This document shows positions 3,225 through 63,235 of a DNA stretch of 64,000 nt, piece after piece (within the stretch, counting starts at the first letter, position 1; the number at the start of each line of letters is the position of its first letter). The stretch is taken from the NCBI RefSeq assembly GCF_030253575.1, contig NC_080567.1, forward strand, positions 16,681,001-16,745,000, read 5' to 3'. The notes beneath the pieces were generated by a model, which saw only the letters and a list, made by a program, of their open reading frames with translations, did not search any database and had not been told where the DNA came from. This DNA is from Rhododendron vialii. Taxonomy: Eukaryota > Streptophyta > Magnoliopsida > Ericales > Ericaceae. The position numbers were made by a program, and so were the translations under genes.

Positions 3225-3334
3225 TTTTTACGTGATTTGAGGGGTGGTGATAAGGGTGGGTAGTTACCAATTCAGTATTTTACAAATTCGTTTTTTTTAA
3301 AGTTAAAATGTCCAATATATCCTCATAGTTAATT

Positions 3335-3421
3335 GTTTTGTATTGTGTTGGTTTTTTTTAAAGGGCATTTTTGGAAAAGGAAAATACATGACAGAAGGGA
3401 GACACCAAAGTAGTGTTCTTC

Positions 3422-3480
<59 letters not shown>

Positions 3481-3702
3481 TAGAATTGTTTTGTATTGTG
3501 TTGATTTTTTTTAGAGGGCATTTTTGGAAAAGGAAAATATATGATAGAAGGGAGACACCAAAATAATGCTCTTCCTTTATATATTAAAATAGATGTTTTG
3601 TATTGTGTTGGTTTTTTTTAGAAGGCATTTTTGGAAAAGAAAAATACATAACAGAAGAGAGACACCAAAATAGTGCTCGCTCTTTATATATTAGAATAGA
3701 TG
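3335..3702 (-). repeat. tandem array of three Helitron-5'-end-like units
   Basis: Units begin at 3335, 3488 and 3595, with a basic period of about 107 bp; the first is lengthened by a (TA)n run at 3425-3475. Each runs from GTTTTGTATTGTGTTG through GGCATTTTTGGAAAAG and GGGAGACACCAAA to CTTTATATATTAGA. Read on the minus strand each begins TCTAATATATAAAG, the AT-rich TC start typical of plant Helitrons. A fourth unit at 5545-5649 was separated from the others by a solo LTR. Confidence 0.75.
3425..3475. repeat. (TA)n microsatellite
   Basis: About 25 TA units, grown from the short TATATA present in the other units of the same array. Confidence 0.95.
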
Positions 3703-5544
3703 TGTGGGCTCCCCGCCCGGCGCGTGCTTGAAGAGTCGCCACCCGGATTTTTGAGATGAATAATCCGAGAAACTGAGAGTTCGTTTGAGAGAAAAATGCA
3801 TTTGATCTAGTAAAAACATCGAGGCTTTGGGCCTGAGAGCCACGTTACGAGCGGAGAAGGTTTTGTTGAAAAAGCATCCCACTCACCCGGTAAAAACCGG
3901 TCTTTACTTAGCATTCTAAATGGGGAGTTCAAAATCATTCAAAAACTTTTAACTTTTAGAAATGAAACAGGTGGCACGAAAGTCATTTGTAAATATGTGG
4001 CAAATGTGTACAAATGAACGAGGTCATGTACAGTGGAATGGAAACTGGAAATGAAATAAGAATGCTAATGTAAACCAAAATACCGTGCAGTAGGATGGAA
4101 TGCCGTGCGGCGCTCCTAATGTTCTTCGAAACTTTTATGATTACTCACGGTGGAACAAAACACTGCACGGTATTACCGAAACACCTCGCGGTACTACCGA
4201 TATACCATAGGAACGCCGCGCGACACACCGAGTGCTGTACAAGAACTGTTTTTGATCTTTGAAAATGTAAGGCTTATGTGCGACCCATACCCAGTACAGA
4301 AGACTGCGATGGCCCCACAAGGCCCCCCTTACGGCTATGAGCTTGACCCATACCCAGTACGGAAATAATTTTATTAGATTTTCAGCTCACTTTGGCACGT
4401 GAGAACATGCTTGAAAGCCTTGTAGAACTAAGACCAATCTGGAAACAAAAATGAAAATACTGCACGGTATTACAAAATGCCGTGCGAGGTTCAAAACATC
4501 TCGCACGGTATTTTGTAACCCGTCTATGTTCTGATTTTTGGTACTGTTGAATATACGGTTTATTTGAAATCCAAACCCAATATAGAAAAGACTAGGATAG
4601 GCCTCAGAAGACCTCCCCTAAAAACTAAACAAGGTTTAGCTTAAGGAAATCGATTCATACCTTCTTGTAGGCTTGGATGTGCTTGAGGATAGAGGAATGG
4701 AGCGGTTGATTTGGACTGAAAATCCCTTTTGAGCTTGAATGGGGATTGAAGGATGTGAAGATATTTGGATGCTTTAAGGTGGAAGTCCTCCTAAGTCAAT
4801 AGTTTACTGGACTTAAGAGGAGAGGAAGAATGAGGGTATTTTTAGAGAGAGAGAGAGTCTAGAGAATGCAAGAGTAACTTTCTTTGGAGTTGAAGGGGTG
4901 TTGTAGAGAGAGAATCAAGAGGGGTCCTTTTTCTCTAAGAGGAGGGGTGTATTTATAGGCAAAAATATGTTTGGAGTGCACCCAAAGGCAAAAAATGTGA
5001 AAAACGTGCTCTAGACAATCTGCTGACGCGCATGGGAATTGTCAGATGCTCCTCCTGACGGTGTTTCAAATTTCAAAAGGCCGAGCGGTCTATTGAAATC
5101 TCGTGCGGTGGAGTGATTTTTTGAAATGCCGTGCTGCGTTTCTAGAATGCCGCGCGGTTTTTCGAGACAGCACAGCACACTGAATTTCACGGGGGCCCCC
5201 CAGACACTCCCGAACTTGGATTTGAGCACGGTTCAAAGCGTTGGAAAGCTTGTCGAGTCCTCTTTCTAACCCAATTGGTTTCACTCAAAGACGTTTTATA
5301 CATTCAAATGTGTGCCCATTTTACCATCAGTATGTCATGGAAAAAGTTGTTTTTGACCAAACAAACGCATTTTTCTCTTTGCAATTGAATCGGGGGCCAC
5401 CTTATACGTTTGGGAAGGGGTTTTCTTGAGGTGTAGAGAAGGAGTAACAAAGGAGCAACAATCCAAGCCTCGAAGTTATATTTTTCCTTATTTCATCATC
5501 GGGATGTTTAAAGGCCCTCCGAGATCCGGATTGTAGTGTCTACA
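3703..5544 (-). mobile_element. solo LTR, 1.84 kb, probably Gypsy
   Basis: The element begins TGTGGGCTCC, ends GTGTCTACA and is flanked on both sides by the 5-bp duplication AGATG. Joining the flanks restores the repeat unit seen at 3595 and 5549, which confirms the boundaries. On the minus strand a TATA box (CTATAAATACACCCC, near 4950) followed by a GA/CT-rich leader suggests minus orientation. No internal domain is present, so this is a solo LTR left by LTR-LTR recombination. It is a fossil younger than the array it interrupts. Confidence 0.85.
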
Positions 5545-5649
5545 AGATGTTTTGTATTGTGTTGGTTTTTTTTAGAGGGCATTTTTTGAAAAGGAAAATA
5601 CATGACAGAAGGGAGACACCAAAATAGTGCTCTCCCTTTATATATTAGA
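5545..5649 (-). repeat. fourth Helitron-5'-end-like unit
   Basis: Same unit as at 3335, 3488 and 3595. Its minus-strand TC start (5649-5648) lies one base from the CTAG end of the neighbouring Helitron, so one Helitron-type 3' end and one 5'-type end abut head to tail. Confidence 0.7.
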
Positions 5650-6203
5650 ACTAGCGAATGCCCGTGCCTGAAGGCACGGGTCAAACAATGAGCAAAGGGA
5701 GCACCGGAATATGCGCAGGACAAATTGAGGTGCAAAAAATATTCAAGCGGGTCAAAAGTTTCCAAAATCAACAAATCACCCAACACACATAATAAAAATT
5801 AAATAAAGTCAAACTGAATATATATTTGTAAAACTTAACGTAACAAATAAAATGTCATTATGAGATTCCCAATATCTTAACAAAGCTCTTATCATGACGA
5901 CCCCATCGTTCCTTTGTCAGTCCTCGACATTCCTACATAAATAAGATTAAAAATGTGAAGTGATTTATGTATAATCTGGGTATGACAATGAAATAAAAAG
6001 GACAACTTATAACACCTACAATCTGTGTAATCATTTATTACCTTTGAAAATGTGCAAACATCCTTCTCACCAATCAACTTTTAATACGAAAGTCACAACA
6101 GAGACACAATGGTTAAGATACGCAACCTTTGGAGCAACAATAATAAACACGTATGAGCGTCCATAATATTGAGAAACATAGTCTGTGAGCATTTGCACCC
6201 CAT

Positions 6204-6303
6204 TATCTTGGCAAAACATCACAAATAAAGGTATTGCTATATTATTTAAATTCTATCTTGGCAAAACATAACAAATAAAGGTATTGCTATATTATTTTAA
6301 TTC
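6204..6303. repeat. 50-bp direct duplication
   Basis: Two nearly identical copies, beginning TATCTTGGCAAAACAT at 6204 and 6254, lie just downstream of the RPA1-like exons inside the Helitron. Confidence 0.85.
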
Positions 6304-6344
6304 TATACAGTGTGATTTTGATCTAGCTTTTAAGTATTCACCAT

Positions 6345-6685
6345 TAACATTAATTTCTTCAGATTGGATGCGACACATTGTAAGATAAATTCTGCCTTCG
6401 TATCCTTTAGCAAGAGCTCCATTGAGCCAGTGGAGTCTTTCATTGCAATCTTTACATTATATCTAAGATGCATGCAAATAATTCAACCGCTTTGGATGTG
6501 TTACATCTAAGTTGTAGTACTCATTATAAAAATGAATACCTGGTTACGGTTTGGACATCTTCTTGTCCGCATTGATTACACACAACCCAACCATACTGAT
6601 CTTCAACTTGCTTAAAGCATGTATTGCATAAATCAATCCATAGGTGTTCAACATATATTTTTTCGATGCGGCCAATAACGCGATA
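6345..6685 (-). pseudogene. RPA1-like exons (DBD-C zinc-ribbon/OB fold) in the Helitron
   Basis: On the minus strand an acceptor (ACAATAG) opens an exon at 6685 reading YRVIGRIEK, then LWIDLCNTCFKQV and YGWVVCNQCGQEDV. It ends at 6540 with a GTATTC donor. The next exon starts at 6462 after CATCTTAG and reads RYNVKIAMKDSTGS, then LLLKDTKAEFIL. The junction keeps frame. The CxxC...CxxC pair followed by a TG-type OB strand matches the C-terminal DNA-binding domain (DBD-C) of the large replication protein A subunit, which binds single-stranded DNA. After about residue 85 the frame is lost near 6355, and upstream domains are not recognisable, so this is a decayed fragment. Plant autonomous Helitrons are known to carry RPA-like genes, so this may be ancestral cargo and not a recent host capture. 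Confidence 0.8.
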
Positions 6686-9207
6686 CTATTGTACGCACGA
6701 AAAAATTCACAAATTCGAAGTGTATGTATATAATGAAAAAAAATATTAACCATGAAATCATGTACGGAAAAATCTTACATTGGACAGCATGAACGCAAAT
6801 TGGTTTATTCGAATTCTCTTGGCATTTGAAATTATTAGTGTCTATGGGAGCGAAAATCCATGAGTGCGATTCCATGCTACCAACTTCTGTGCATTTTTGT
6901 CTTCGGCGAACCTAGATTAGCACGTAATTTTTTAGAACAATTAATCAAACAAAATAATACTCATCTCAATTATACATTGTAGAGTATGCATCAACATATT
7001 AGTTTGATTCACTCTATATCCAACTTAGTTTGGTTCATGCAACATCCTTTAATCTAGCGAACAAAAAAAAAAGTGCAAACTACTATGTGTACCAAACTAA
7101 TTGCTTAAGTCATTTAGTTTGCCTTTAGGGCCCAAAAAAAAAAAGTGCAAACATCTCTAACGCTTCAATTCGTCCCTTTCTCTTTCGGGCACATGAGAAA
7201 ATGACTCCATTTAACACCTTTTGATTCTCTATTTGAAGCCGTAGCTTGCTGGCTTTGCTCTGCCCTTGGGTTTGTCAACCAACCTATGGCTATCTTGATG
7301 CTCGATCTCTGGAACTAAAGGTACGCTAAGGAAAACCTTGTACAGTACAAAATAGAAGGAATGAACAACAGAGCAGAGCAGAGTAGGAAGGGATTTCCCC
7401 AGACCAGACTTTGTTTTGTACAGCTGCCTATTAAACAGTATTACTAATAGTTCTCATAGTCTCTAATCTAATCTGAGAACGGAATGAAAAGAAATAAAAA
7501 AAAGGTGAACGGTCAAACTGCATGCAATTGACAGCCAAAAGAGAGAAGCCAGTTGCGGCACACTGACACTGACTATATCCTACCCCGGTGACCAGAGTCA
7601 TTTCCTTGTTTAACCATCATATTGAACGGCACCAGAAGCATTTCCAATGAGATGCATCAGCAACAGTTCAGTGGGAGTAAGGTGATGTTGAAGATGTGTC
7701 AACCTACGTTCAGGAATCTGACTCATCTATGACAATTACCATGTCCCTCAACTGATATACCTTGTCCAACCAACATGACTCTCCCTTGAGTTACCAAAAA
7801 AAATCCATGCAAATGGAAAGCGATAATGAAAAACAAAATCCATATGAAATCATTTGTTTAGCAATGAAGGTGGGAGAGTGGTTACCTTTGACCTCGGTGG
7901 TTCCTGCTACTCCGATGAAGGCAAAAAAGAAGAAGAAAAAACTACTCTTTGTCGCTAACATAAACAAATGTCCGGCTGTCTCTATTGAGTCTCTCATGCT
8001 ATCCAAATTACAATAGTTCAAGATCACCAAATTCGTCTGCCATGCTAATGCGAGACAATGTGGCAACTCCTATAACAGGTGACTTCTTTTAGATAAGCAT
8101 GAGATGGTGACTTCACATATACTCGGTGATATAGAAAATAAATACAGAGATGGTTACAATACCAAAGTTACGAAGAAAAATAGCCACATTACAGGTTAGT
8201 CATATTTCAATGCCAAACAAACAAAAATAACCAAATGCCAAACAAATTATCGTAATGACCAACAAAGATTGAGTCTCTTAACAGAATCAAAGAGGACCAT
8301 TTCCAATCAAACAAAACAAAGGCCAAAGATAGGTTCGAGATTGATTGCTTAAAGTCTTTTCATGTCGTCTCAGTTGAGTTTGAAAGAGCATATTTTGGAT
8401 GTGGGTATGGTATCTTAAAACCTGTAGAGCAAAAATCAACAACAGTTAATAAGGCAAAAAGGAACAAACTCCATTTGCCAAAAGACATGCTACCTTGATT
8501 TTTCAAACAATAACTATATTGGAGTCAAAAAGAATTAAAGGAAAATAATGCAAGTACTTAATGCCCTGAAAAGAAAAACAATGTTTCTTTTACCTCCAAA
8601 AGCACTTTCAGACTCACTCATTTTCATCCAAGTACTTCATGCCCTGAAAGTTACAGTAATGATCCTAAGAACACTAAGTTCCAAACAAAAAGTAGCTTCC
8701 TCGAATAGGCATAAACAATAACGCAGCACAAAAATATAAATCACCATTTTGGATGCCCTATTTCTTTATAAACAATTTCTCATTTTGAGAAAGATTTTTA
8801 CTTTTAATCTCTTTCCCTATACCCGATAACACCATTTTGGATGCCCTGTTCCTTTTATATTCCCTACAATTTTTTCCAGAAAAACAGGCAGAATATAGAA
8901 GATGAGAAGGAATTTGATTTCCCCCAAATTCTCTTTCTTTATCTTTAAAGCCATAAAAAAAAAGGTTGCGACCAACACTAATTCAACAATTAGGGTTACA
9001 AAATTGGAAAAAAGGGGAGCTACAGTATACCTGGACGAATGAGAGAGAGAACCCGAAATCAAAATAGAGAGGGGAGTGGCGGTGGGTATGGCGGAGAGAG
9101 ACGATTGACAGAGTGATGGAGGGAAAAGAGCGTGTGGACTGGTGGAAGTCATCGGCGGCTTGGCGTTGGTGGGATTCGGAAGACGAAGACGGAGAGGTAT
9201 TGTTGGT
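6686..9207. other. Helitron interior without recognisable genes
   Basis: AT-rich sequence with short open frames only. A possible further exon ending at a GTAAGA donor near 6770 precedes the RPA1-like exons but could not be matched. The remainder shows nothing I can name. Confidence 0.5.
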
Positions 9208-9208
9208 T

Positions 9209-9288
<80 letters not shown>
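9208..9288. repeat. compound (GT)n(GA)n microsatellite
   Basis: About 12 GT units run directly into about 28 GA units, inside the Helitron near its 5' end. Confidence 0.96.
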
Positions 9289-9292
<4 letters not shown>

Positions 9293-9543
9293 GGAGCAGA
9301 TCGGTTTCTCCAAAGAGAGAGACGATGATGTGCTCCATCGGTGGCTGCACTTCCCTTTTTTGGAAGGATTCAAATAATATTTCCATAAAAACTGTGCTCT
9401 ATTCTTGCCCTAATAATGTTAAGTATTTACAAAAATGCCTTTTGTAAGATGAAGGGCAGAGATTTATGTAAGTATGAGGATAAATCTAGAGCGTTGGTTA
9501 TCTTTTGGATTCAAACACAGCTCTGTTTTATTATATAGATAGA

Positions 9544-24010: not shown

Positions 24011-24380
24011 TTGAAAAATGAGGGAAGCGAAGGATGGGATGAGAAAATAATTTGGCTTTGCTAAACCTCCATCCATTAGGTAGAGGATAATATACACATA
24101 ATTTCAAACAAATTTGAATATTAATGCATATCTCATAGATATGAATATACCATCACAAATATTAATACATCTTTTTCGGATATCAATATACTCTTTTACC
24201 TATTATCCTATAGTCTTTTGGATCGACGTTAGAATAACCTTTGAAATATTAATGCAAATATTTTAGGCAGCTTATTTTATTTGTTAATTCCACTGCCACT
24301 TTTGTTTTTATCAGATAGGGAAGGTGAGAGGACAGGTCATCGGCAAAAGTGAGGGAACTGCGATCTTCCCAGACTCCTAA

Positions 24381-24383
<3 letters not shown>

Positions 24384-24411
<28 letters not shown>
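24384..24411. repeat. (CT)n tract in a 5' leader
   Basis: About 14 CT units end 12 bases before the ATG of the GeBP gene, so the tract probably lies in its 5' UTR. CT/GA tracts near plant start sites are known targets of BASIC PENTACYSTEINE (GAGA-binding) proteins; that use here is inference. Confidence 0.85.
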
Positions 24412-24414
<3 letters not shown>

Positions 24415-24423
24415 CCATATTCG

Positions 24424-25728
24424 ATGGGTCAAAAAAAGATAGTCCGGAAGAACCGAGCTCCACTGGAAGACCCTCCTTCCGATCCGTCTTCTTCATCATC
24501 ATTACAAGAAGATGAACAACTCACCGACCAAGAAGAAGAAGAAAACCACTATCAAGAACCAACCAAAGAAACACCAGAATCTGAATCTTCCGAAGACGAA
24601 GAAGAACAAGAAGTTCAAGAAGTAGAAGAAAAGGTAGAGAAAACTAAACCCTCTGTTAAAAAACCCATCACTCCAGCAAAACCACAACACCCTCAGTCGT
24701 CGGACTCCGACCCGGGATCTGATTCGGAGACCCATTTGGGCTCTCCGACTTTCACGAAGTCCATCGCTTCCAAGCCCAAGAAACCCACCTCTTCTAAACG
24801 CCTCATGCAAGAGTTTGAAAAGACTGCTAACCTGTCACAAAAGAAAAAGAAGTCCAAGGTGGTTGAGGAGGAGGAGAAGAAGTATGTCGGCGCGATTAAC
24901 AGGTTGTGGAGCGAGAAGGATGAGGTTTTGATACTGAAGGGATTGATTGACTTTCAGTCCAAGAACGGTTCCGACACGTATCCGGATATGGGTGAGTTTC
25001 ATGAACTAATCAAGGAATCTCTTAGTGTTGATGTTTCCAAAAATCAGTTTGTGGATAAGATTAGGAAGCTGAAGAGAAAGTACAATATCAATGTTGAGAA
25101 AGCAGTTTTCTCACGGCCCCATGAACGCAAGTGTTTAGAACTTTCAAATAAGATATGGGGTGGGGGAAGGGAGAAGAATGGGATTGATGGGAATGAGAAG
25201 ACCGTCAAGCTTGGCGATTCTGTTGTTGTGCCTAAAGAAAATGATGGGAAGGAGGGTGCATTGGGAGATGAGAATAAAGATGGAGTTGATGGGAATGGGG
25301 AGAGTAACGAAGTTGATGAGAATGGGAAGAGTAGTCGAAGTAAAAGAGCGAGAAAGACTGATTCGGTAGCTTTGCCTAAAGGAAATGGGAAAGAGGAGGT
25401 TGCATTGGGAAAGAAATTGAAAGGAGGAAAAATGAAGGATATGGAAGTTGATGAAGTGGGGGACTTCTGGGCAATGCACCCGTGCTTGAAAGAGTCGTTG
25501 GAGATGGAGACGGAGACAGGGATGCCTTCCGATTTGTTAAGGAAGAATCCTGTGAGGAGATTTTTGAAGGAAAATATGAGTACAATTGGGAACGAAAAGA
25601 CGATGGAGCTGGAGAAGAAGTGGAAGAATTTGCGTGCTGCTGAAGTTACTTTAGCTCTAAAGCGGGGGGAATTGATGAACGAGCAGACAAAGCTGGTGTT
25701 GGATGCAACGAATGCTTCAAAGGATTAA
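24424..25728 (+). CDS. GeBP/STOREKEEPER-like (DUF573) transcription factor
   Basis: A single-exon gene of 434 residues. The first 155 residues are low-complexity, acidic and proline/serine-rich (QEDEQLTDQEEEENHYQEP) with a basic KRLMQEF...KKKKSK patch that may act as nuclear signal. Residues about 160-246 form the DUF573 DNA-binding domain: RLWSEKDEVLILKGLIDF, then SKNQFVDKIRKLKRKY and ending LSNKIWG. A Gly/Asn/Lys-rich linker leads to a conserved C-terminal part (FWAMHPCLKESLE) and a probable coiled coil at about 392-434 (MELEKKWKNLRAAEV). Family members are plant nuclear regulators, linked to cytokinin responses and trichome expression in Arabidopsis and to the patatin promoter in potato. 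I chose the ATG at 24424; the frame stays open upstream only through a GTG and the CT tract. The frame is intact, with no transposon inside. Confidence 0.92.
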   Translation: MGQKKIVRKNRAPLEDPPSDPSSSSSLQEDEQLTDQEEEENHYQEPTKETPESESSEDEEEQEVQEVEEKVEKTKPSVKKPITPAKPQHPQSSDSDPGSDSETHLGSPTFTKSIASKPKKPTSSKRLMQEFEKTANLSQKKKKSKVVEEEEKKYVGAINRLWSEKDEVLILKGLIDFQSKNGSDTYPDMGEFHELIKESLSVDVSKNQFVDKIRKLKRKYNINVEKAVFSRPHERKCLELSNKIWGGGREKNGIDGNEKTVKLGDSVVVPKENDGKEGALGDENKDGVDGNGESNEVDENGKSSRSKRARKTDSVALPKGNGKEEVALGKKLKGGKMKDMEVDEVGDFWAMHPCLKESLEMETETGMPSDLLRKNPVRRFLKENMSTIGNEKTMELEKKWKNLRAAEVTLALKRGELMNEQTKLVLDATNASKD

Positions 25729-31482: not shown

Positions 31483-32262
31483 GTTTCGACAGTTTCGACT
31501 CTGGAACAAGGTTACCTTGATCACTTGATCCTGGGGGAAACAGTTCCCTCTTTGATGTGCGACAGATTACGGACTTGAATGCTGAGAATATTCAGTTGAA
31601 ACTTCTTTTGGCTAGGTCTAGCCAGTCTACAGAGTTGGGGCTAACCCTTTTTTGAAGAATGTCGTGATTAGTGATAAAAATGTCTCTTGAAGAATGTCGT
31701 GATTAGTGATAAAAATGTCTCTGGTGTGGTTGATAAGGAGTCTTCTACTCCTAATGCTGGTAGAATGAAGCTTGAGTTAATTCTTTCCCCCTACTGTTGA
31801 AAATAATAGGATTGTTGTGTCTCCCTCTGAACAAATTGAACAGCTTGGGTAGTCTAAATGGGAAAAGTGCGTTGTTGGGCACTTCCTGGATAAGAAGTTG
31901 GGTTTTACAGCTGTGAGGAATATTGCAATGAACATATGGGATAAGTTTGGTATTCGTGAAGTGTTTCAAATGAAAAAGGTTTTTTCTTTTTCCTGTTTGA
32001 GGGGGATAAGTTTAGGCAAATATTGGAGTTGGGGCCTTGGCATTTTGGCGGGAAGCTTCTGATCCTGAAGATGTGGCATCCCCACCTCAAGATGGAAAAT
32101 GAGCAACTGTCTAAGATCCCTATTTGGGTCCATTTCTATAATGTACCCTTGGAATTCTGGACTGGGCCTGGTCTTAGTCATATTGCTAGCTCAGTGGGGT
32201 GTCCTTTATATGCAGATCAGTTGACTGAAGCTGGGAAGTGACTAAGTTTTGCAAAAGTTTGT

Positions 32263-33038
32263 ATGGAGGTGGATTGTTTCTCCATCCTTCCTGATTCTTT
32301 TGATTTGAAGTATGCTAATGGGGATGTGGTGGTGATTAAGATTCAGTACCCTTGGCGGCCTCAAGTATGTACTGATTGTAATGTGTTTGGGCATGGGACT
32401 ACAAATTGCCCAAAGAGGATTGGGGTGAGCAAATTGGGGGCCGGTGAAGCTAACGGTTGTAATGGCAAATCTGTGCTGACTAAAAATCAATCTTGGCAGG
32501 TGGTGGACTCTCTTAGGCAAGACTCTGGGACTGGGATTGGGGTTCTTAGCTCTCTGGGGCACCTTCCAAGTGTTCTTGCTTCGACTAGTGAACCTTGTGG
32601 GTTAACAACTCATGACCCTATTGCAGCTGGAGAGTTGGGACAGCAAGGGAGTGGTGTTGAGTTTGTAATTCCTGAAGGTGATGTGCTTGGCCTTTCTCCT
32701 AGGAAGGTTTCTTCTTATGTTAACCGTTCCTCTCCTAAATCTAGGCAAATAGATTTGAGATTCTTATTGCTGCTACTGGTGATGATACTGAATTGCAGGG
32801 TTCTGTGAGAAGGTTTGAGCTTGTGGGCAAGATTTTACCAGATGAATTACCTGCTGACTTGTTTGATGTACATCTTGTAGGTGATGCTAGTGTGAGTGCT
32901 GATATTGATTCTGAGGTTGTTTTTGTTCCTCAGCAGGTGTCCACCTCTCCTCCTAATTTGGGTGATAATCCAGGGGTCGGAAAAGGTGGTGGGAAAGGTC
33001 CCGCTTCTAAGAATGGGAGGAACAAATCCAGGCGTTAA
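32263..33038 (+). pseudogene. LINE ORF1 remnant with zinc knuckle
   Basis: Frames 32263-32808 and 32793-33038 carry the C-terminal half of the gag-like LINE protein: DVVVIKIQYPWRPQVCTDC, a CX2CX4HX4C knuckle for nucleic-acid binding and a low-complexity tail. The DUF4283 region lies upstream in broken frames (31855-32240). Confidence 0.75.
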
Positions 33039-34189
33039 AATTCAGGATTGGATGTTGGAATATTAGGGGACTTAACAATCCCCTAAAACAAAAAGAAGTT
33101 AGGTCTCTTATTTGTTCTCAGAGGCTGAGTTTGTGTGGGGTTTTGGAGGCTAAGGTTAGGAAGGAGAATCTTGATACTATTTGAGTAAGGTGTTTTCCTA
33201 ATTCCTGGTTGATGCTTGAGAACTTTGGAATTCAAGGAATTGCAAGAATTGTTTTAGAATGGGATCCCAGCTCCTTGGATGTTTCTTTGCTATATAGTTC
33301 TGCTCAACTCCTTTGTGTACAAGTAAGGTGTTTAACTACTCATAAAGTGTTTCATGTCTCTGCTGTTTATGGAGCCAATGCTATGGTTGATCGAAGGTCT
33401 CTTTGGGATTCTATGAGGTTGTTGCATTCTTCTTTCAGAGATTTTCCCTGGATCTAGATGGGGGACTTTAATGTTGTTGCTAGAAGCTCTGAACGAGTGG
33501 GGTCGTTTGATGCTACTGCTGCTGCTGAATTTCGTAAATGCTTGTTTAATATTAATATGAAGGATTTGATTACTAGGGGAGCTTGGTTTACCTGGTCCAA
33601 CAGACGGGGTGGTGGAGGTGCAAATATGAGTAGGATCGATAGAGTTGTGGTTAATGCTGCTTGGATGGATGCTTTCCCTGAAGCTGAAGCTTTAGCTCAT
33701 TATCCAGGTATCTCTGACCACTGTTCCCTCTTAGTGACTGTGTGTCAGTAGTTTGTTGCAAAAAGCCTTTTCGGTTTTTTAACTTTTGGATGAAGCATCA
33801 CAAGTTTAAGAGTTTGGTGTCTGATTCTTGGGTTCAGCCTGTCTCTGGGTCTGCTATGTTACGATTATCTTTGAAACTCAAACGGTTGAAACCTGTTCTC
33901 TGGGACTTAAATGCAAACTGTTTTTCCAACATTTCTGGGAGAGTGGGGGATGCTAGGCAGACTATGGAAACCCTTCAAGACCTGTGTAACCAGAATATTG
34001 GGGATGATAATCTTAGGTTTCAAGAGAAAGAGGCTGTTAGGGTGTTTATGGAGTTGAGTGTTGCTGAGGAGTCTTTTAAAAAACAAAAATCAAGGGTTAA
34101 TTTGTTAGCCCTGGAAGATCAAAATACTAAATTTTTTCATCATAAAGTTAGTAGCAACAGGATGAGAAACAAGATCTTGAGTTTGGTGA

Positions 34190-35586
34190 ATGCTGATGCA
34201 GTGCGGCTGGAAAAGCCAGAAGAGGTCTAGGCTGAGATTTTTGCAATTCTATAAAGGTTTGTTGGGCACTAGATTTATGCATAAACAAGATGCTAAAGCT
34301 TGTCTTCAACAAGTCATAAAGAAGAAGGTGCCTATTTCCTTGCATGAGGAGTTAATCAAATCTGTTACTGTTGAAGAGATTCAGAATGCTCTTCGCTCCA
34401 TAAAGGGGGACAAAGCTCCTAGCCCTGATGGTTATTGCTCTAGTTTTTTTCAGCAGAATTGGGAGATTGTGGGTCAAGATTTGGTGGATGCTGTTTTGTT
34501 GTTCTTTGAAAAAGAATTCTTGCTTCGAGAGTGGAATTCTATTGCTCTCACTTTGGTTCCAAAGACCCCTAGCCCTTCATCTGTCAAAGATTATAGGCCC
34601 ATTGCTTGTTGCAATCTGGCATATAAAGTGATTTCTAAAATCTTGGCTAAGCGGATGCAAGGTACTCTAGATCATGTTATTAGTTCTGCTCAGTCTGCTT
34701 TTGTCAAAAGAAAGAGTATTGTAGACAATGTGTTGCTCATGCACGAGCTAATAAGGAATTATCATAGGGATGAAGGCCCACCGTGATGTGCTATTAAGGT
34801 TGATCTCATGAAGCGTACGATTCAGTTGACTGGGATTTTTTACTAGATAGCATGGCTGCTATGGAGTTCCCTGCAACTTTTATTGGATGGGTCAGAGCAT
34901 GTGTTACATCTCCCATGTTTTCTATCATGATAAATGGAGGATTGGTTGGTTATTTTCCGGGTGCTAGAGGGCTTAGGCAGGGAGATCCCATCTCTCCCTA
35001 CCTATTTTTACTAGTCATGGAGGCTTTTTCCTCTCTACTAACTTGGAATATTGGTCAAGGGGAGTTCACTTTTCACCCTAAATGTCAGGCTCTGGGGATC
35101 TCTCATGTTATTTTTGCAGATGACCTTTTTTTGCTTAGTGGTGCTCAGGAAGGATCTTTGCAGATTATATTGAGTACCTTAAGGGAGTTCCATGGTTTTT
35201 CAGGTATGCAGCCTAATCTACTCAAGAGTTCTATGTTTTTTGCTGGTGTGTCAGGCACTACCAAGTTATCCTTTTCTGTTCTGATGGGCATTCCTGAGGG
35301 CAAACTCCCTGTTAAATATCTAGGAGTTCCTCTTATTAGTACAAGACTCACTTCAACTGATTGTTCTATGCTTAAGGAGAAGATTTTGGCCAGAATTCAT
35401 AGTTGGACCCAAAAGTTTTTATCTTATGGGGGTAGGGCTCAGCTTATTCAATCTGTCCTTTTTAGTATTCAAACTTATTGGAGTTCAATTTTTACATTAC
35501 CTCAAAGCATTCTCAAAGAAATAGAAGGGGTTCTTAGTGTTTTCCTATGGTCCGGTGCTGATCTGAACATTCTGGAGCTAAGGTAA
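34190..35586 (+). pseudogene. LINE ORF2 reverse transcriptase remnant
   Basis: Two frames (34190-34786, 34852-35586) cover most of the RT fingers, palm and thumb: SIKGDKAPSPDGY, WNSIALTLVPKT, RPIACCNLAYKVISK, GLRQGDPISPYLF and the catalytic FADD motif near 35117. The strand holding KVDLMKAYDSVDW between them is interrupted by TGA at 34784 and a shift. The thumb part KYLGVPL is conserved. Confidence 0.85.
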
Positions 35587-35890
35587 GCTGGGTAAATCTC
35601 TGTGTTGAAAGAGGTCTTGGTTTTAAATCCTTGAAGGAATGGAATAAAGCTGTTAATATGAAGCATTTGTGGGCCCTTAGCCAAAAAGCAGACAATCTAT
35701 GGGTTAAATGGGTTCATGTATATATCCTCAAAGGACAGAGTTTATGGGGGATTCAGTGTCCTAGTGAGGCTTCTTGGGTAATGCGGAAGTTGATGAAGCT
35801 GAGAGCTACCTGCCAAAGTTGGATTAGGTACATATCATTGGCAATGGTAATGATACTTTCCTTTGGACTGATAATTGGCACCCTTTAGGA

Positions 35891-36694
35891 GTGTTATACC
35901 AGCAATTTGGGGAGGCTGTGGTGACTAATCGGGGTCTTGCTTTGCGTGCTAAAGTTGCTTCTATTATTGATCAAGGACAATGGAAGTGGCCAAGGATAAG
36001 GAACAGAGCTGTATTGAGCATTATACGGAATACTCCTGAAATTTTTTTGCCTTCCACCTCTGATTGTGATAAGGTTGTGTGGACCCTAACTTTTGATGGC
36101 TCCTTCTCGGTGAAATCTACTTGGGAGGCGTGTCGAAAGCGCAACACCATCCAACCTTGGTATAGCTTGGTTTGGTTTAGTCAAGGTGTGCTGCGTTGGA
36201 GTTTTATAGAATGGCTTGCCATTCTAGGCAGGCTATCCACTAGAGATAGGTTGTTTAGTTGGGGTGTAGTTGTGAGCCCTCAGTGTGTGCTGTGCATGGA
36301 TGATGTGGAGTCACATGATCACCTCCTTTTTGCGTGCCACTTCTCTTCTGACATACGGAAGCAAATTCGGACCCATAATGGTATTCACAAGGCTGTCTTG
36401 CCTTTATCTCTAGAAGTTGCTTGGGCTGTGCAGAGTTATGCTGGTAAAGGGTTTAGAAACACCATTTACAAGGTGTCATTAGCTGCTTCTGTTTACTTCT
36501 TATGGGGGGAACGTAACGCCAGGATATTCCAGGGCAGATCTAGGAGTGTTACTGAGGTTACTAATGAAATTTTTGATGCTGTTCGTGCCAAACTCAGTTC
36601 TTGGAGTACGGTGACGTTCCATACCCAAAATAGGGGGTTGTGTGAGGATTGGCTTCTTGATTCTCGTATTTTTGGGATAAATAATTGTAGATAG
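35891..36694 (+). pseudogene. LINE ORF2 C-terminal zf-RVT region
   Basis: An open frame of 267 residues containing the zf-RVT domain (FSVKSTWEACR; LSTRDRLFSWG; CVLCMDDVESHDHLLFAC) and the usual C-terminal tail FLWGERNARIFQGRSRS. It is the longest undamaged piece of the LINE. Confidence 0.82.
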
Positions 36695-54392: not shown

Positions 54393-55047
54393 TGTAACGC
54401 CCCGAATTTTGGGTACGTTAAAAGGACATTTTATTGATAACATCAAATGGAGTCTGGCTCTTACTACAACAAATACTCTCACAAGAGTTCAATATTTACA
54501 CAAATGAAGGGGGTTCTACGGTTCCTAACTACAGCTCCTCAGCTCCTCCATTCTTGCCAGCTCATCAGCTCCAAAAGCCTCCGCGGTGAACTGCTTACCC
54601 TAATCATCTACAAAATCTGACACATTATACCGGCGTCGCCACCCATATAATATGTCAGGGTCACCAAAAGATAACACCGTGAGCTACAACAGCTCAACAG
54701 GAAAATCCCGTACCCGCTAACCCATACTTACAAACAATAGGAAATAACACATCGATTTCCACATGATACATATATATGCAGCTAACAATGACACATCCAC
54801 ATTCGTTAATCAACTATCGTTGGTGTCCAAGAGTTTCGTATTTCTCTTACGCGACTCATCGTAGACTGTGTCAACATTTTCATTTACAAAAACAATCTTT
54901 CAAAAACCACTTTGTTTAAACACACCCAATCTTTTTAAAATCATTTGCATTGGCTCCGTACCGCGGATAACCAAGCTACACACCCAACCTTTTTAAAATT
55001 ATTTGCATTGGCTCCGTACCGTGGATAACCAAGCTACACACCCAACC

Positions 55048-55500
55048 TTGGTTCCGCCGCGCCGGGTTTCCAAGTATCCTCACAATGGTTCCGCCGCGCC
55101 GGGTTCCCATTGGCACACAAAAATATTTGCATTGGCTCCGTACCGCGGATAACCAAGCTACACACCCAACCTTGGTTCCGCCGCGCCGGGTTTCCAAGTA
55201 TCCTCACAATGATTCCGCCGCGCCGGGTTCCCATTGGCACACAAAAATATTTGCATTGGCTCCGTACCGCGGATAACCAAGCTACACACCCAACCTTGGT
55301 TCCGCCGCGCCGGGTTCCCAAATATCCTCACAATGGTTCCGCCGCGCCGGGTTCCCATTGGCACACAAAAATATTTGCATTGGCTCCGTACCGCGGATAA
55401 CCAAGCTACACACCCAACCTTGGTTCCGCCGCGCCGGGTTCCCAAGTATCCTCATAATGGTTCCGCCGCGCCGGGTTCCCATTGGCACACACACACCTCA
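55048..55500. repeat. 124-bp tandem array inside the LTR
   Basis: Units start with TTGGTTCCGCCGCGCCGGGT at 55048, 55172, 55296 and 55420 (the last partial), preceded by a partial unit from about 54940. Each unit contains GGTTCCGCCGCGCCGGG twice and a CCGTACCGCGGATAACC block. Units are nearly identical, so the array is young. The Arg/Pro-rich open frames on both strands are artefacts of the repeat. Confidence 0.93.
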
Positions 55501-57113
55501 CAATGGTTCCGTTTTTCCCGGATCCCATTGGAACACACACAAAACACACACTACACAATGGGCTACCACGTCTGGCCACATTGTGGTTTTCACAATCCAC
55601 GCAATGGGCTACCAAGTCCGGCCACATTACGAGTTTTCATACACACAACGGGCTACCAAGTCCGGCCACGTTGCGATTTTCAAAATCCACACGATGGGCT
55701 ACCACGTCCGGCCACATCGCGGTTTCCAAAACATTTCAACATTTTCAAATGTTTCTTTTACACACGCACATAACTCACATAATGCCACCAAAAACCGGTC
55801 ATTATGTAGTTTCAAAAATATTTCCTTCTTCAAAAAACATTTTTTTAAATCACACCCTAGATGTCATGTTTCTACTTTCTCGGTTCTCGTGTCTCGTTTA
55901 CATGTAAAGACTCCGCGGTAGGACAAACGTATACAAGAATCATCCTAACAAGATCATCCAATTCTATATTACTCATCACGCTCAATTACTACTTATAGCA
56001 TAACGCCACATGTACGGACGCCTTTGGAGTGTATCACTTATGCTTTATTCAAAGCACAACGCCACATGTACGGACATCTTTGGAGTGAAATCACTTATAC
56101 TTTATCACATACCACAAGTAATTCAAGCAATTCATATATGCATTAATCATCTTAAAGATCAAATACAAATACTTCTAAACAAACGATAAGTACGAAAATA
56201 AAGATAACCTACTTTATAATTGGGGTGGACGATAAGGATATTCTACTTATACGTTGAATTAGTGGATGAGGGACTCTACCTTCCTTCTTGGCGGTAGTCG
56301 GCTACGGAAGGTTAGTCGGCTACGGAAAGTACGTCGGTGGTCGGGCGGAGTAACTTCCTACGGTGGTCTCCAGTAGCTTCGAAAGAGAAAGGTTTCTCTC
56401 GAAACTTCTACTTGACTAACACTACTCTACTTTTGGATCGAGAGGGTGGTCGAGTGGCGGTCTAGTGGCGGCTTAGGTTGAGCTTCTTGAAGAACACAAG
56501 AAGAACTCAAGAACAAAAAGAACAAAAGAAAGAACAAAGAAAGAACATAATTTTTCTAGAGAGAGAAGTTGCTAGGTGAAGGTGTGAGTTGAATGATAAA
56601 CATGGGGTGCTATTTATAGGCAAAACCTTGGCTCCCTCTCCCTCTCTAATGGCCGGCCCTCTCTCTCTCTCTAAATCCTCCATGGATTTGCTCCATTAAG
56701 TCATCAAATCACCTCACATGTCAAGCCATGCCTTGTCCAATCCAAATCTTAGGTGTAAGGCTATGTAATCAACTAAAATCTTAGGCTTTTTAGGTGAATC
56801 TAGGTAATTATAATCTAGGTTTAGCTTGTAGTCAAGGTCTAAGGCTAATAAAGGCTAGGATTGTGTCATAAAGGTCCATCATTGGTTGTCATTAGGCAAA
56901 ATAGACTTAGGCCTAATAAGGTAGCTTGCAAGGCTAGGTTTAGTCCTTGGATCTGATCTTTGGGAGATTTGTTGGAAGAAAGGGGACAATGGTACAAGAT
57001 TTGGGAACTAAACAATCCTAGAAGTACAATGGGGGAATTATGTTTGGCTAGGAGAAAGATTCACCAAGGGTGAAGAAAGATCAAGCATGGTACAACCAAC
57101 CTTCCTCTCTCTT

Positions 57114-59662: not shown

Positions 59663-60312
59663 ATTTCTGGAGATGAGTGCGTTTGAGAAACCTGCTTTGT
59701 TTTCGTTTGAGATCTTGAGATTTTTGCTTTGATTTCTGCTTCATGTGTTTTAGTTTTAATAATTTTTAGTCACTACTATTTCTAAACCCTAGAATCTGTT
59801 TCAGTTGATTTTTTGAAACCCTAGAATATGGTACTTCCGAACGGACCAGTGTAGGCGGGTCCAGATCTAGAACACTTGTATACTTTGTTCTAACACCAGT
59901 ATCTAGTAATCAAAACAAAATATGCTCGAAGCAAGAGGGATTTTGGAAAAATTCAGATTGATTTGCTCAAAGTCTCTGGTCGTGTCGCAAAAGGAAACAA
60001 GATATTTTAATGGGTTTGATTCCTTGGCTCCTAATTATGAGCAGTCAAAATTTGTGCAAACAAGATCATGACAAAGTATAAAAAAAGGGCGGGGGGGGGG
60101 GGGTGTTCACGGGTTCTAATATTTTTTTCTGCTTTGATATTTTGTTAGTAGATGGATATCACTGGAAATGAGTTGGATTATACTTCGGAGGAGACCGAGG
60201 TGTTCACCATAGTGACGCATTTGATCAGGCAGAAAAAAGTGGTGTGTGGTTTGGCTATAATTGTGGTCCAAGTTGCTCTTGAGAGATATTACTCTCGACA
60301 GAATCTAGGTTT

Positions 60313-61539
60313 ATGGAACCGAACCCATTCCAAGAACAAATAGATAACATCAATCGGTTAGTGCGTCGTAGCGACGTAACTTGTTTGGAGCAACTTCGGA
60401 TGGATAGGAATTGCTTTATGCGTCTGTGTAACCTAATTGAAACAGTTGGAGGGTTGTCCCATTCAAGGTCAGTTTGTTTGGAGGAGAAAGTTGCGATGCT
60501 TTTGTACACCATAGCGCACTACCATAAGAATAGAGTTGTTAAGCACCACTTCTTCCGGTCAGGTCAAACTGTTAGTAGGCATTTCAATGATGTTCTTCAG
60601 GTTGTCATACGCCTGCAAGGTCAACTACTCGTCAACCCTGAGCCTATAACTCAAGCATGCACAGATGATAGGTGGAAAAGTTTTCAGGTAACATTTGAAA
60701 TTGAGTACATAACTCGTACGGTTATTTTATGTTTCTAAGTACAAATAATTAACTTCTTGCAATATTTTTAGAATTGTTTGGGGGCATTAGATGGCACATA
60801 CATTGATGTTCGAGTTAGTCCATCTGTCAGACCAAGGTATAGGAATCGAAAAGGAGAGTTGGCTATAAATGTGTTGAGTGTTTGTAACACAGATATGAAC
60901 ATAATCTATGTCTTATCTGGTTGGGAAGGATCAGCAGCAGACTCTAGAATCTTGCACGATGCTATTACTAGGACTAATGGGCTAAAAATTCCCACCGGTA
61001 AGCATTTTTTTTTATTACATATGTAACTTTATCAACATATTTCTTAATAAAAAGTACGTAACTTAGTAAATCAATCATACACAGGTTCGTATTACCTTGT
61101 TGACGCTGGCTACACAAATGCAGAAGGATTCTTAGCTCCATACAGAGGAAAGCGTTACCATTTGAAAGAATGGGATGGTCCAGCTCCTCAGGACCATGAG
61201 GAGTACTTTAATATGAAGCATGCCCAAGCCCGTAACGTCATTGAGAGGACTTTTGGTTTGTTAAAAATTCGATGGGCTATTCTTAGGAGTTACTCATTCT
61301 TCCCCATTAGAACGCAGTCTCGTATTGTTACGGCATGTTGTCTAGTCCATAATCACATTAGAAAAGAGATGAGTGTTGACCCACATGAACATGAACTTGA
61401 TAATCTCGAAGAGGAAGATAATGATGATGACTACATTGATACAGTCGAGACATCAGGTCAATGGACTGATTGGAGGGATGCCTTTGCACAACATATTTAT
61501 CAAGAGTGGCAAGCACGAAGGGGCCATGGTGGAAATTAG
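60313..61539 (+). CDS. PIF/Harbinger transposase (DDE_Tnp_4), three exons
   Basis: Exons 60313-60687, 60772-60997 and 61085-61539 with GT-AG introns give 351 residues. The N-terminal half (VRRSDVTCLEQLRMDRNCF; VAMLLYTIAHYHKNRVVKHH; FRSGQTVSRHF) is the helix-turn-helix region usual in plant members. The catalytic DDE residues are visible: D in GALDGTYIDV (about residue 131), D in GSAADSRILHDA and E in ARNVIERTFGLLKIRWAILR. The GWEGSAADSR and YYLVDAGYTN blocks are family hallmarks, and an acidic tail follows. It cuts and joins the element ends at TWA sites, normally together with the Myb-like partner. An upstream frame starting at 60152 (MDITGNELDYTSEE) is out of phase with this one; it could be a leader peptide, or a longer N-terminus lost to a frameshift. 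I chose 60313 because family similarity begins right after it. Confidence 0.9.
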
Positions 61540-61647
61540 AGTGCCCTTGTTATTTGTAACATCATGTCATTAATCATGTATTTGTTTGTAAGACTTTATC
61601 GGTGGCTTTGATCACATACTATTTGTACGACTTTATGTAACTGTGAT

Positions 61648-63235
61648 GCCTTTTGTGATGAACTTTTGGAACAGAAGCGTAACCTTATGTTATGCCTTTT
61701 TGTGATGGTTTTAGCATGTAATGTGATGGCTTTATTATAAGCCTTTTTGTGATGGCTTTAGCATGTTATGTGATGGCTTCAGTATAAGTTTTTGTTTGGT
61801 TATGTGACGGCTTTTAGCTGTTTACAGATTTTTTTTTTGTTTGGTTGGCTTTAGCATGTTATAATTGAGAAGGCTTTTTGATCCAAAACAGTGGTAGGAC
61901 AAATTCTTTGAATCCTTGAATTGAGAATTTGGAATACCAATCCTTGAATTGTGTAAAAATGAATGTGGGCATTGACTATATTAGGGATGGAGAAGCCTAC
62001 TAAGTATCGTAAGAAGGGAGGGAAGGCAAAGGAAGGAGGGAATGCTGAAGAAAACATTGTTGATGCAACTAGGCGTTCATGGAATCAAAGGGAGGACGAT
62101 GCACTTCTTAATGCAATGAAGGAAATGGTTGTCAAAGGTGAAAGAATTGAAAATTCTTTCAAATCTGGATACTTGAGGAAAGTTGAGGGAATGTTACTTG
62201 TTGCTTTGCCTGGCACTAGCATTCGTGCCGGTCCTCATATTTCGTCTAAGTTGAAGGTTTGGAAAAAAAACTATTACTCTGTCAAGGCTATGCGTGGCTC
62301 TAGTGGGTTCGGATGGAATGACTCAACACATATGATAGAAGTAGTAGACGATAAAATTTGGGAGGACTACTGCAAGGTAATCTTTTTTCCCAATCAAGTC
62401 TACCAATATATAGCATGTTAATCATGTAAATAACCGTTGCATTTTAAATCTTTTGTAGACAGACAGTAATGCGCAGGGGCTAAGGTTCAAGTCATTCCCT
62501 TACTATGATGATTGGTGCATGATTTTTGGGAATGACAGAGCAACGGGAGAGATGGCTGAGAGTGCAGCAGATATGGTTGAGAACTTAGATGAGGCTGCCA
62601 ATGAAGGTGGTGGTAATTCAACCACGGTGAACAACACTGACAAGTCACCTGAAGAGCATTCGAAGAAAAAGGCTAAGGTTTCTGAGAACATCTTGGCTGG
62701 AATGAATAATTTTGCCGACAAGTTGGGGATATATTTTGAGAGGTCTGATGCTAAGATTGAGATGCTTGGAGGTAGGATGGGTTATGCACATGACCTCTCA
62801 AAGAAAAGAGGTGAAGTTAATGACGCACTTAGGAAACTTCCAATCACAGTTGAGTCTAGGGTCGTTGTCGGAATGGCAATCACCCAAGATGCACAAAAGG
62901 TTGATCACTTTTTCAGCCTTGATGACGAGGAAAAAATGGTAATGGTGAAGAAGTTGGGTGGTGAAGAAGTTGTGTGACTTGTGTCCTTAAGTTTCAAGTC
63001 TACTGGGAACAAAAACTTAAAACTATGTTTATTTTAGCTTTTGTTGGCCAGTGTGGGGTGCACTTTTAACAAATATGATGCCTTTTGTGATGCACTTTGG
63101 GAACAGGAGCGTAACTTTATGTTATGCCTTTTTGTGATGGCTTTAGCATGTTATGTGATGGCTTTAGCTGTCTACAGATTTGTTTTTGTTTTTGTTTGGT
63201 TGGCTTTAGCATGTTACAATGCACAAGTTATATCA
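61648..63235. repeat. direct repeat after both Harbinger genes
   Basis: About 61648-61862 and 63079-63235, just after each of the two genes, share GCCTTTTGTGATG, CTTTTTGTGATGGCTTTAGC and TTTGTTTGGTTGGCTTTAGC. Within the first copy the GTGATGGCTTTAGCATGTTA motif is itself repeated. The two genes therefore have similar 3' untranslated regions. Confidence 0.85.
61987..62977 (+). CDS. Myb/SANT-like partner protein of PIF/Harbinger
   Basis: Exons 61987-62376 and 62459-62977, joined by a GT-AG intron in phase 0, give 302 residues. After a basic start (MEKPTKYRKKGGKAK) residues about 33-130 form a Myb/SANT-like domain: SWNQREDDALLNAMKEMV, KVWKKNYYSVKAMRGSSGFGW and KIWEDYCK. Exon 2 continues NAQGLRFKSFPYYDDW, an acidic/Asn-rich linker, a KKKAK basic patch and a helical C-terminus. 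In related elements this protein binds subterminal DNA and helps move the transposase into the nucleus. An in-frame ATG eight codons upstream (61963) is a possible alternative start. Confidence 0.87.

Follow-up and report, generated by a model that had tools for sequence, protein, structure and literature searches.

A non-autonomous Helitron of Rhododendron vialii, probably derived by internal deletion from an RPA-bearing plant Helitron lineage

RPA-bearing Helitrons without RepHel have already been published for rice, in the portion of the rice study drawn on here (Roffler et al. 2015, PMC4683698), which also places plant Helitron RPAs outside core RPA. For maize, both RepHel- and RPA-bearing forms and deleted forms with the same ends have been published, in the portion of the maize study used here (PMC3288121). 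The titles and abstract openings of the literature on Helitron and Rhododendron do not name RPA-bearing Helitrons. Here, we describe a Helitron of 3,889 bp in a 64,000-nucleotide stretch of Rhododendron vialii DNA (NC_080567.1, positions 16,681,001 to 16,745,000; the window hereafter), where it occupies 5651-9539 of the minus strand with its 5' end at 9539 and its 3' end at 5651. The kind of element is already known, and the window Helitron is a new example of it. With a probability of roughly 0.93, we consider it to be a non-autonomous element that arose by internal deletion within an RPA-bearing plant Helitron lineage and in which the RPA exons are the lineage's own and now form a pseudogene fragment. 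This reading is built on the observed ends, target site and genomic copies, on a relative with the same ends that carries RepHel and RPA, on the placement of the exons in a tree and on decay shared among the copies.

The features of the locus are as follows; the relative on contig C7 is called the C7 element, and positions are those of the window.

5540..5650, minus strand: target, the continuation of a 107-bp repeat unit, which resembles the 5' end of another Helitron (CA followed by TCTATTCTAATATATAAAG; the Helitron-end reading is by inspection)
5651..5680, minus strand: 3' terminal hairpin and CTAG, from motif and fold, with 28 of 29 terminal bases the same in the C7 element
6042..6207, minus strand: last recognised RPA DBD-C exon, broken (PF08646 reaches up to 40.8 bits when it is added; TGA at 6069-6067; acceptor damaged)
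6204..6303, minus strand: 50-bp tandem duplication spanning the last intron/exon border, found in the six copies and L022 but neither in L023 nor in any of the seven aligned outside relatives
6342..6462, minus strand: RPA DBD-C exon, OB-fold part, from alignment and from the rise of PF08646 on joining (16.8 to 36.4 bits)
6540..6685, minus strand: RPA DBD-C exon that carries the zinc ribbon C-x2-C...C-x2-C (the ORF piece 6682-6524 scores 16.8 bits against PF08646, and 36.4 after joining to the next exon)
~6779..6913, minus strand: upstream RPA exon remnant, 5' limit uncertain, from homology to the C7 element and other relatives, with an in-frame TAG in the window copy
7028..9394, minus strand: middle of ~2.4 kb without C7 counterpart, with a TG/GA microsatellite at 9208-9288 and no recognised protein domain
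9395..9539, minus strand: 5' terminal region of ~125-145 bp shared with relatives (84% over 124 bp with the C7 element; 82-84% over 129-147 bp with L012, L013 and L018-L021)

Ends, insertion site and genomic copies

Read along the minus strand, the element starts after an A with TCTATATAATAAAACAG, which supplies the 5' TC, and finishes with CCCGTGCC-TTCA-GGCACGGG-CATTCG-CTAG followed by T; the stem of the 3' hairpin is 8 bp long and CTAG comes after it. The preliminary description had recognised a minus-strand Helitron from these same signals, and both ends lie exactly at the positions it gave. Folded as DNA, the 3' terminal 50 nt reached -10.5 kcal/mol, against a shuffle mean of -4.3 (z -4.0; 1 of 200 shuffles was as good). 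With up to three mismatches allowed, the end motif occurs once in the window, against an expectation of 0. Scans for the 3' end in prokaryote and viral contig collections gave 0 matches each, as expected there, and Rfam gave 0 matches for the whole window at gathering thresholds.

The left flank, which ends in TATATATTAGAA, and the right flank TAGATG together give TATATATTARAATAGATG, a sequence found uninterrupted at 3578 and 3685; a diverged unit of the same 107-bp tandem repeat lies at 3469. Since the repeat units at 3469-3703 are uninterrupted, the pre-insertion site can be read within the window itself. This empty-site comparison places the element between A and T with zero duplicated bases, the right-hand match being 6 bases long and the 5' boundary being fixed independently by copies with other flanks. 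The 107-bp tandem unit occurs at 3330-3703 and 5540-5650 (2.2 copies by TRF, plus related units) and, on the minus strand, starts with CA followed by TCTATTCTAATATATAAAG, resembling another Helitron's 5' end; a 3' end of the Helitron so suggested was not found by reading. By inspection, the 3' end directly abuts another-Helitron-like 5' end in two of the six copies, namely at L002 (C8:10492081-10495991) and at window position 5650, which suggests insertion into or beside Helitron termini.

The genome searched comprises 532,647,506 bases (532.6 Mb) in 13 contigs. Besides the window copy, at least five more copies of nearly full length are present, which cover 3,887 or 3,889 of the 3,889 query positions at 96-98% identity; copy counts are lower bounds, being drawn from 40 scored places out of 573 candidates. 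The flanks of the six copies differ, and in all six an A precedes the 5' end and a T follows CTAG, with the proviso that L003 sits in an AT microsatellite, where A/T flanks say little. The second 5' base is C in four of the six and is substituted in L003 and L004. With gaps excluded, pairwise divergence among the six runs from 0.21% (L002/L003) to 2.84%, and divergence from the window copy from 0.44 to 2.68%. L002 and L003 (C8:10498161-10502059) form an inverted pair ~2.2 kb apart and both hold a 21-bp duplication within the zinc-ribbon exon. Interrupted family members are found at L022 (C10) and L023 (C6). Thus, six copies have common ends and different flanks, as befits a Helitron, and they combine the marks of a non-autonomous one: 5' TC (its C lost in two of the six), a 3' hairpin with CTRR, and insertion between A and T without target duplication. 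The genome search for same-ended relatives that had been proposed as a check returned five further copies and the C7 element.

Elsewhere in the window, and by inspection, long plus-strand ORFs at 32242-36694 resemble a LINE-type retrotransposon (zinc knuckle, reverse transcriptase), ORFs at 60283-62977 resemble a PIF/Harbinger-type transposase and a Myb/SANT-like partner, and a 466-aa stop-to-stop ORF at 24328-25728 resembles a GeBP-type plant DNA-binding protein. Tandem repeats with units of 124, 58 and 46 bp form an array at 54920-55731, and GGTTCCGCCGCGCCGGGTTCCC occurs in the 124-bp repeat.

RepHel-bearing relative, shorter derivatives and the middle of the element

No ORF of the window element exceeds 193 aa, and no RepHel domain was detected in a six-frame Pfam scan or in single ORFs; the six-frame scan also missed the known short RPA exons and is weak for short exons. 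The absence of Rep/Hel noted in the preliminary description thus holds, and the element does not encode the RepHel of an autonomous Helitron.

A relative of 16,441 bp with the same ends lies at C7:6784015-6800455, within the neighbouring stretches L029 and L016. A T instead of an A precedes its 5' end, and its last bases at the 3' end are CACTAG. It contains the RepHel domains Helitron_like_N (9e-54), PIF1 (4e-76) and Pif1_2B (2.6e-17), predicted to be encoded by three ORFs that overlap but do not all share a frame, which implies introns or frameshifts. Towards its 3' end, DUF223 (2.5e-4) and REPA_OB_2 (1.9e-5) fall just below cut-off and Rep_fac-A_C (2.7e-8) lies above it. The window element and the C7 element are 84% identical over 124 bp at the 5' end, with one difference in the first 30 bases, and agree in 28 of the last 29 bp; by the identity of their terminal 30 bp, they belong to the same family. 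Over the RPA 3' exons, identity is 76% across 1,346 aligned columns, and this value, together with a dS of 0.40, argues that the C7 element is not the direct parent.

Four shorter relatives (L012, L013, L018 and L019) have ends of this kind too, with the 3' end of L019 falling beyond the stretch examined, and each also holds stretches without a match. Across deletions, they share 95-98% identity with the C7 element in the interior and 3' blocks, and only 84-88% in the 5' terminal 97-134 bp. L020 and L021 have kept a 3' block of ~1.35 kb (98%) and the 5' end (83-84%). In C7 coordinates, the retained 3' block starts at 14,859 in L013, L018 and L019, at 14,895 in L012, at 15,059 in the window element and at 15,091 in L020 and L021; in the derivatives examined, it begins within a narrow stretch just upstream of the last RPA exons. 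The block with these exons might have been kept for a reason, as a cis-acting transposition sequence or as the template of a short DBD-C peptide, which we think unlikely; the query used to locate these elements includes the 3' block and would by itself select for it, so the pattern may be pure ascertainment. At L024 (C2:35877000-35881500), two adjacent inverted RPA 3' blocks are 81-82% identical to the window element.

The interior of ~2.4 kb without C7 counterpart is a point absent from the preliminary description. This middle matches neither the C7 element nor any sequence compared outside the subfamily, and neither the six-frame scan nor separate tests of 20 minus-strand ORFs (6544-9409) gave a Pfam match above cut-off for it. 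Its source may be another transposon or host DNA that was captured. Deletion alone does not explain this middle.

RPA exons, their decay and their origin

The two exons with the RPA zinc ribbon and OB-fold that had been described beforehand were borne out: joined in frame, 6685-6540 and 6462-6342 score 36.4 bits against PF08646 (E 5e-9, cut-off 28.5), and the ORF piece 6461-6330 of the second exon alone has no PF08646 match. When exon 6207-6042 is added up to its stop, the joined score becomes 40.8 bits; the gain on joining supports the splice structure, which is predicted from sequence. This downstream exon and the upstream one (~6913-6779), recognised via relatives, extend the earlier picture. 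An unrelated zinc-ribbon family, which the preliminary description had named as an alternative, is not borne out by the data, PF08646 being the sole family above its cut-off. Similarity to the NOB1 zinc ribbon stays under its Pfam cut-off, and similarity to the CDCA7 zinc ribbon is insignificant (best E 0.058), though it ranked above RPA matches in one search. A search of solved structures returned weak RPA matches only (best 6i52, E 0.13), and in NCBIfam, TIGR00617 reached 25.3 bits and an archaeal RPA 27.0 bits, both far under their whole-protein cut-offs.

The earlier wording, which spoke of RPA1 exons and of good splice sites, has to be amended: the gene is a divergent Helitron-type RPA and is broken by stops and a damaged acceptor. 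In the window copy, the TGA at 6069-6067 follows the residues VDW, and the acceptor of this last exon, CAG-G in relatives, reads CAA-G; the AG one base on would shift the frame. TGA, damaged acceptor and 50-bp duplication are common to all six copies and L022, and L023 has neither the TGA nor the duplication. The TAG of the upstream exon occurs in L001-L004 and L022 and not in L005, L006 or L023, and individual copies hold further stops. Because the stop and the damaged acceptor are common to the six copies, the family appears to have spread without an intact RPA frame. In the C7-frame translation, these exons are open in C7 and L012, stops occur in C3, C11, C8a and L021, and a codon is broken in L013 and C8a. 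Between the window and C7, dS is 0.40, dN 0.115 and dN/dS 0.29; within the family, the pairs L001/L005, L001/L006 and L005/L006 show 14 nonsynonymous changes against 1, 2 and 1 synonymous ones, small counts that are compatible with no constraint. We infer that the lineage was protein-constrained for much of its history and that the family spread after constraint had ended. The window RPA is a decayed fragment, although one or two of its exons might still yield a short protein in the window copy.

The preliminary description had left two origins for the exons, deletion from an autonomous element and capture of a host RPA1 gene by a Helitron. A genome search with PF08646 produced six matches, distributed over four places that are treated as host RPA1 because of their scores: C11:16307136, C5:1236713, C5:1241508 and C8:23451674-23452307, the last with three exons; this search scored 48 of 48 candidates without reporting the Helitron copies, and divergent paralogues could be missed. 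That the domain is RPA1 DBD-C by Pfam, and that maize Helitrons do capture host exons according to the portion of the maize study used (PMC3288121), would fit capture from the host. However, the window DBD-C protein is 18, 21, 20 and 20% identical to the four host copies, against 73, 68, 72 and 73% to the Helitron RPAs C7, C3, C11 and C8a outside the family. In the tree that had been suggested as a check, one branch (100/99) splits eight Helitron rows, with which the window exons fall, from the four host RPA1 rows (joined at 87/88) and yeast and archaeal rows. Of the 11 inner branches, only 1 carries a star; with partial yeast and archaeal rows, a long Helitron branch and a midpoint root, the tree is silent on the deeper origin of Helitron RPA. 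Judged against this genome's Helitron RPAs and the four putative host copies, the exons belong to the PHRPA lineage, since they resemble Helitron RPA more than the core RPA1 of the host. The same exons also adjoin the 3' end in the RepHel-bearing element, which makes capture of host RPA1 exons highly improbable. The C-x2-C spacing of the zinc ribbon was dropped as a mark of Helitron RPA, since the putative host RPA1 at C8:23451674-23452307 has the same spacing. Taken together, tree, identities and the position of the exons in the C7 element indicate that the source of the RPA exons is an RPA gene belonging to the Helitron lineage itself, rather than a host RPA1 captured recently, and the same-ended relative with RepHel and RPA speaks for the first of the two origins.

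We find it very unlikely that the element is semi-autonomous and still makes an RPA-like protein aiding its own or related transposition, as proposed for the rice Mothra mother element. Two exons do join in frame, the four cysteines are kept in the window copy, and the dN/dS of 0.29 against C7 covers the whole divergence; against this stand the failure to find the N-terminal domains DBD-A/B in the element (six-frame Pfam scan and ORFs tested singly), the TGA and damaged acceptor of all six copies with further stops in some, and synonymous changes that are not in excess within the family. With these defects, a complete RPA-like protein is not recognisable. It is barely credible that two Helitron ends and an RPA fragment came together by chance, or that the locus is a nested composite rather than one transposing unit: the middle has no C7 counterpart and the element sits within another repeat, yet six copies have the same end points in different flanks.

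Derivation of the element and comparison with known systems

In the derivation that we favour, by internal deletion from an RPA-bearing Helitron lineage, the 5' end (~125-145 bp) and a 3' block of ~1.38 kb with the last RPA exons, hairpin and CTAG would have been kept, RepHel and the RPA DBD-A/B region would have been lost, and the unrelated middle of ~2.4 kb would be carried along. RepHel from a C7-like element may recognise the shared ends in trans, RPA, if needed, may likewise be supplied from elsewhere, and the RPA remnant would be a passenger. For this locus, the question of origin is in our view settled: the RPA exons were inherited from the transposon lineage and not captured from the host RPA1 genes found. 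Annotators should be aware that exons of this kind may end up labelled as host RPA1-like genes. One genome contains, side by side, an element with RepHel and RPA, close derivatives of reduced length and a less closely related family that retains a decayed remnant of RPA, and these forms fit the stepwise loss model published for rice Helitrons.

The C7 element and the window element have in common their ends, the RPA 3' exons and the position of RPA adjoining the 3' end. The C7 element differs in its length of 16.4 kb, its RepHel domains, its 76% DNA identity in the shared 3' block and its lack of the window middle. Among published systems, as far as the cited portions describe them, the putative mother element of rice DHH_Mothra (Roffler et al. 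2015, PMC4683698) shares with the window element the TC, hairpin and CTAG, a Helitron-type RPA-like gene without RepHel, and the presence in its genome of a sister family that has related ends and carries RepHel; unlike the window element, a decayed DBD-C remnant in 3,889 bp, it is 6,544 bp long and has a re-annotated 472-aa RPA of eight exons. The maize element ZmhelB2, in the consulted portion of that study (PMC3288121), resembles the C7 element in combining RepHel with RPA DBD-A/B/C. Its derivative ZmhelB7 parallels the window element in keeping the same ends after internal loss, but there the RPA-like fragments were lost too, whereas the window element has kept the last RPA exons (PMC3288121).
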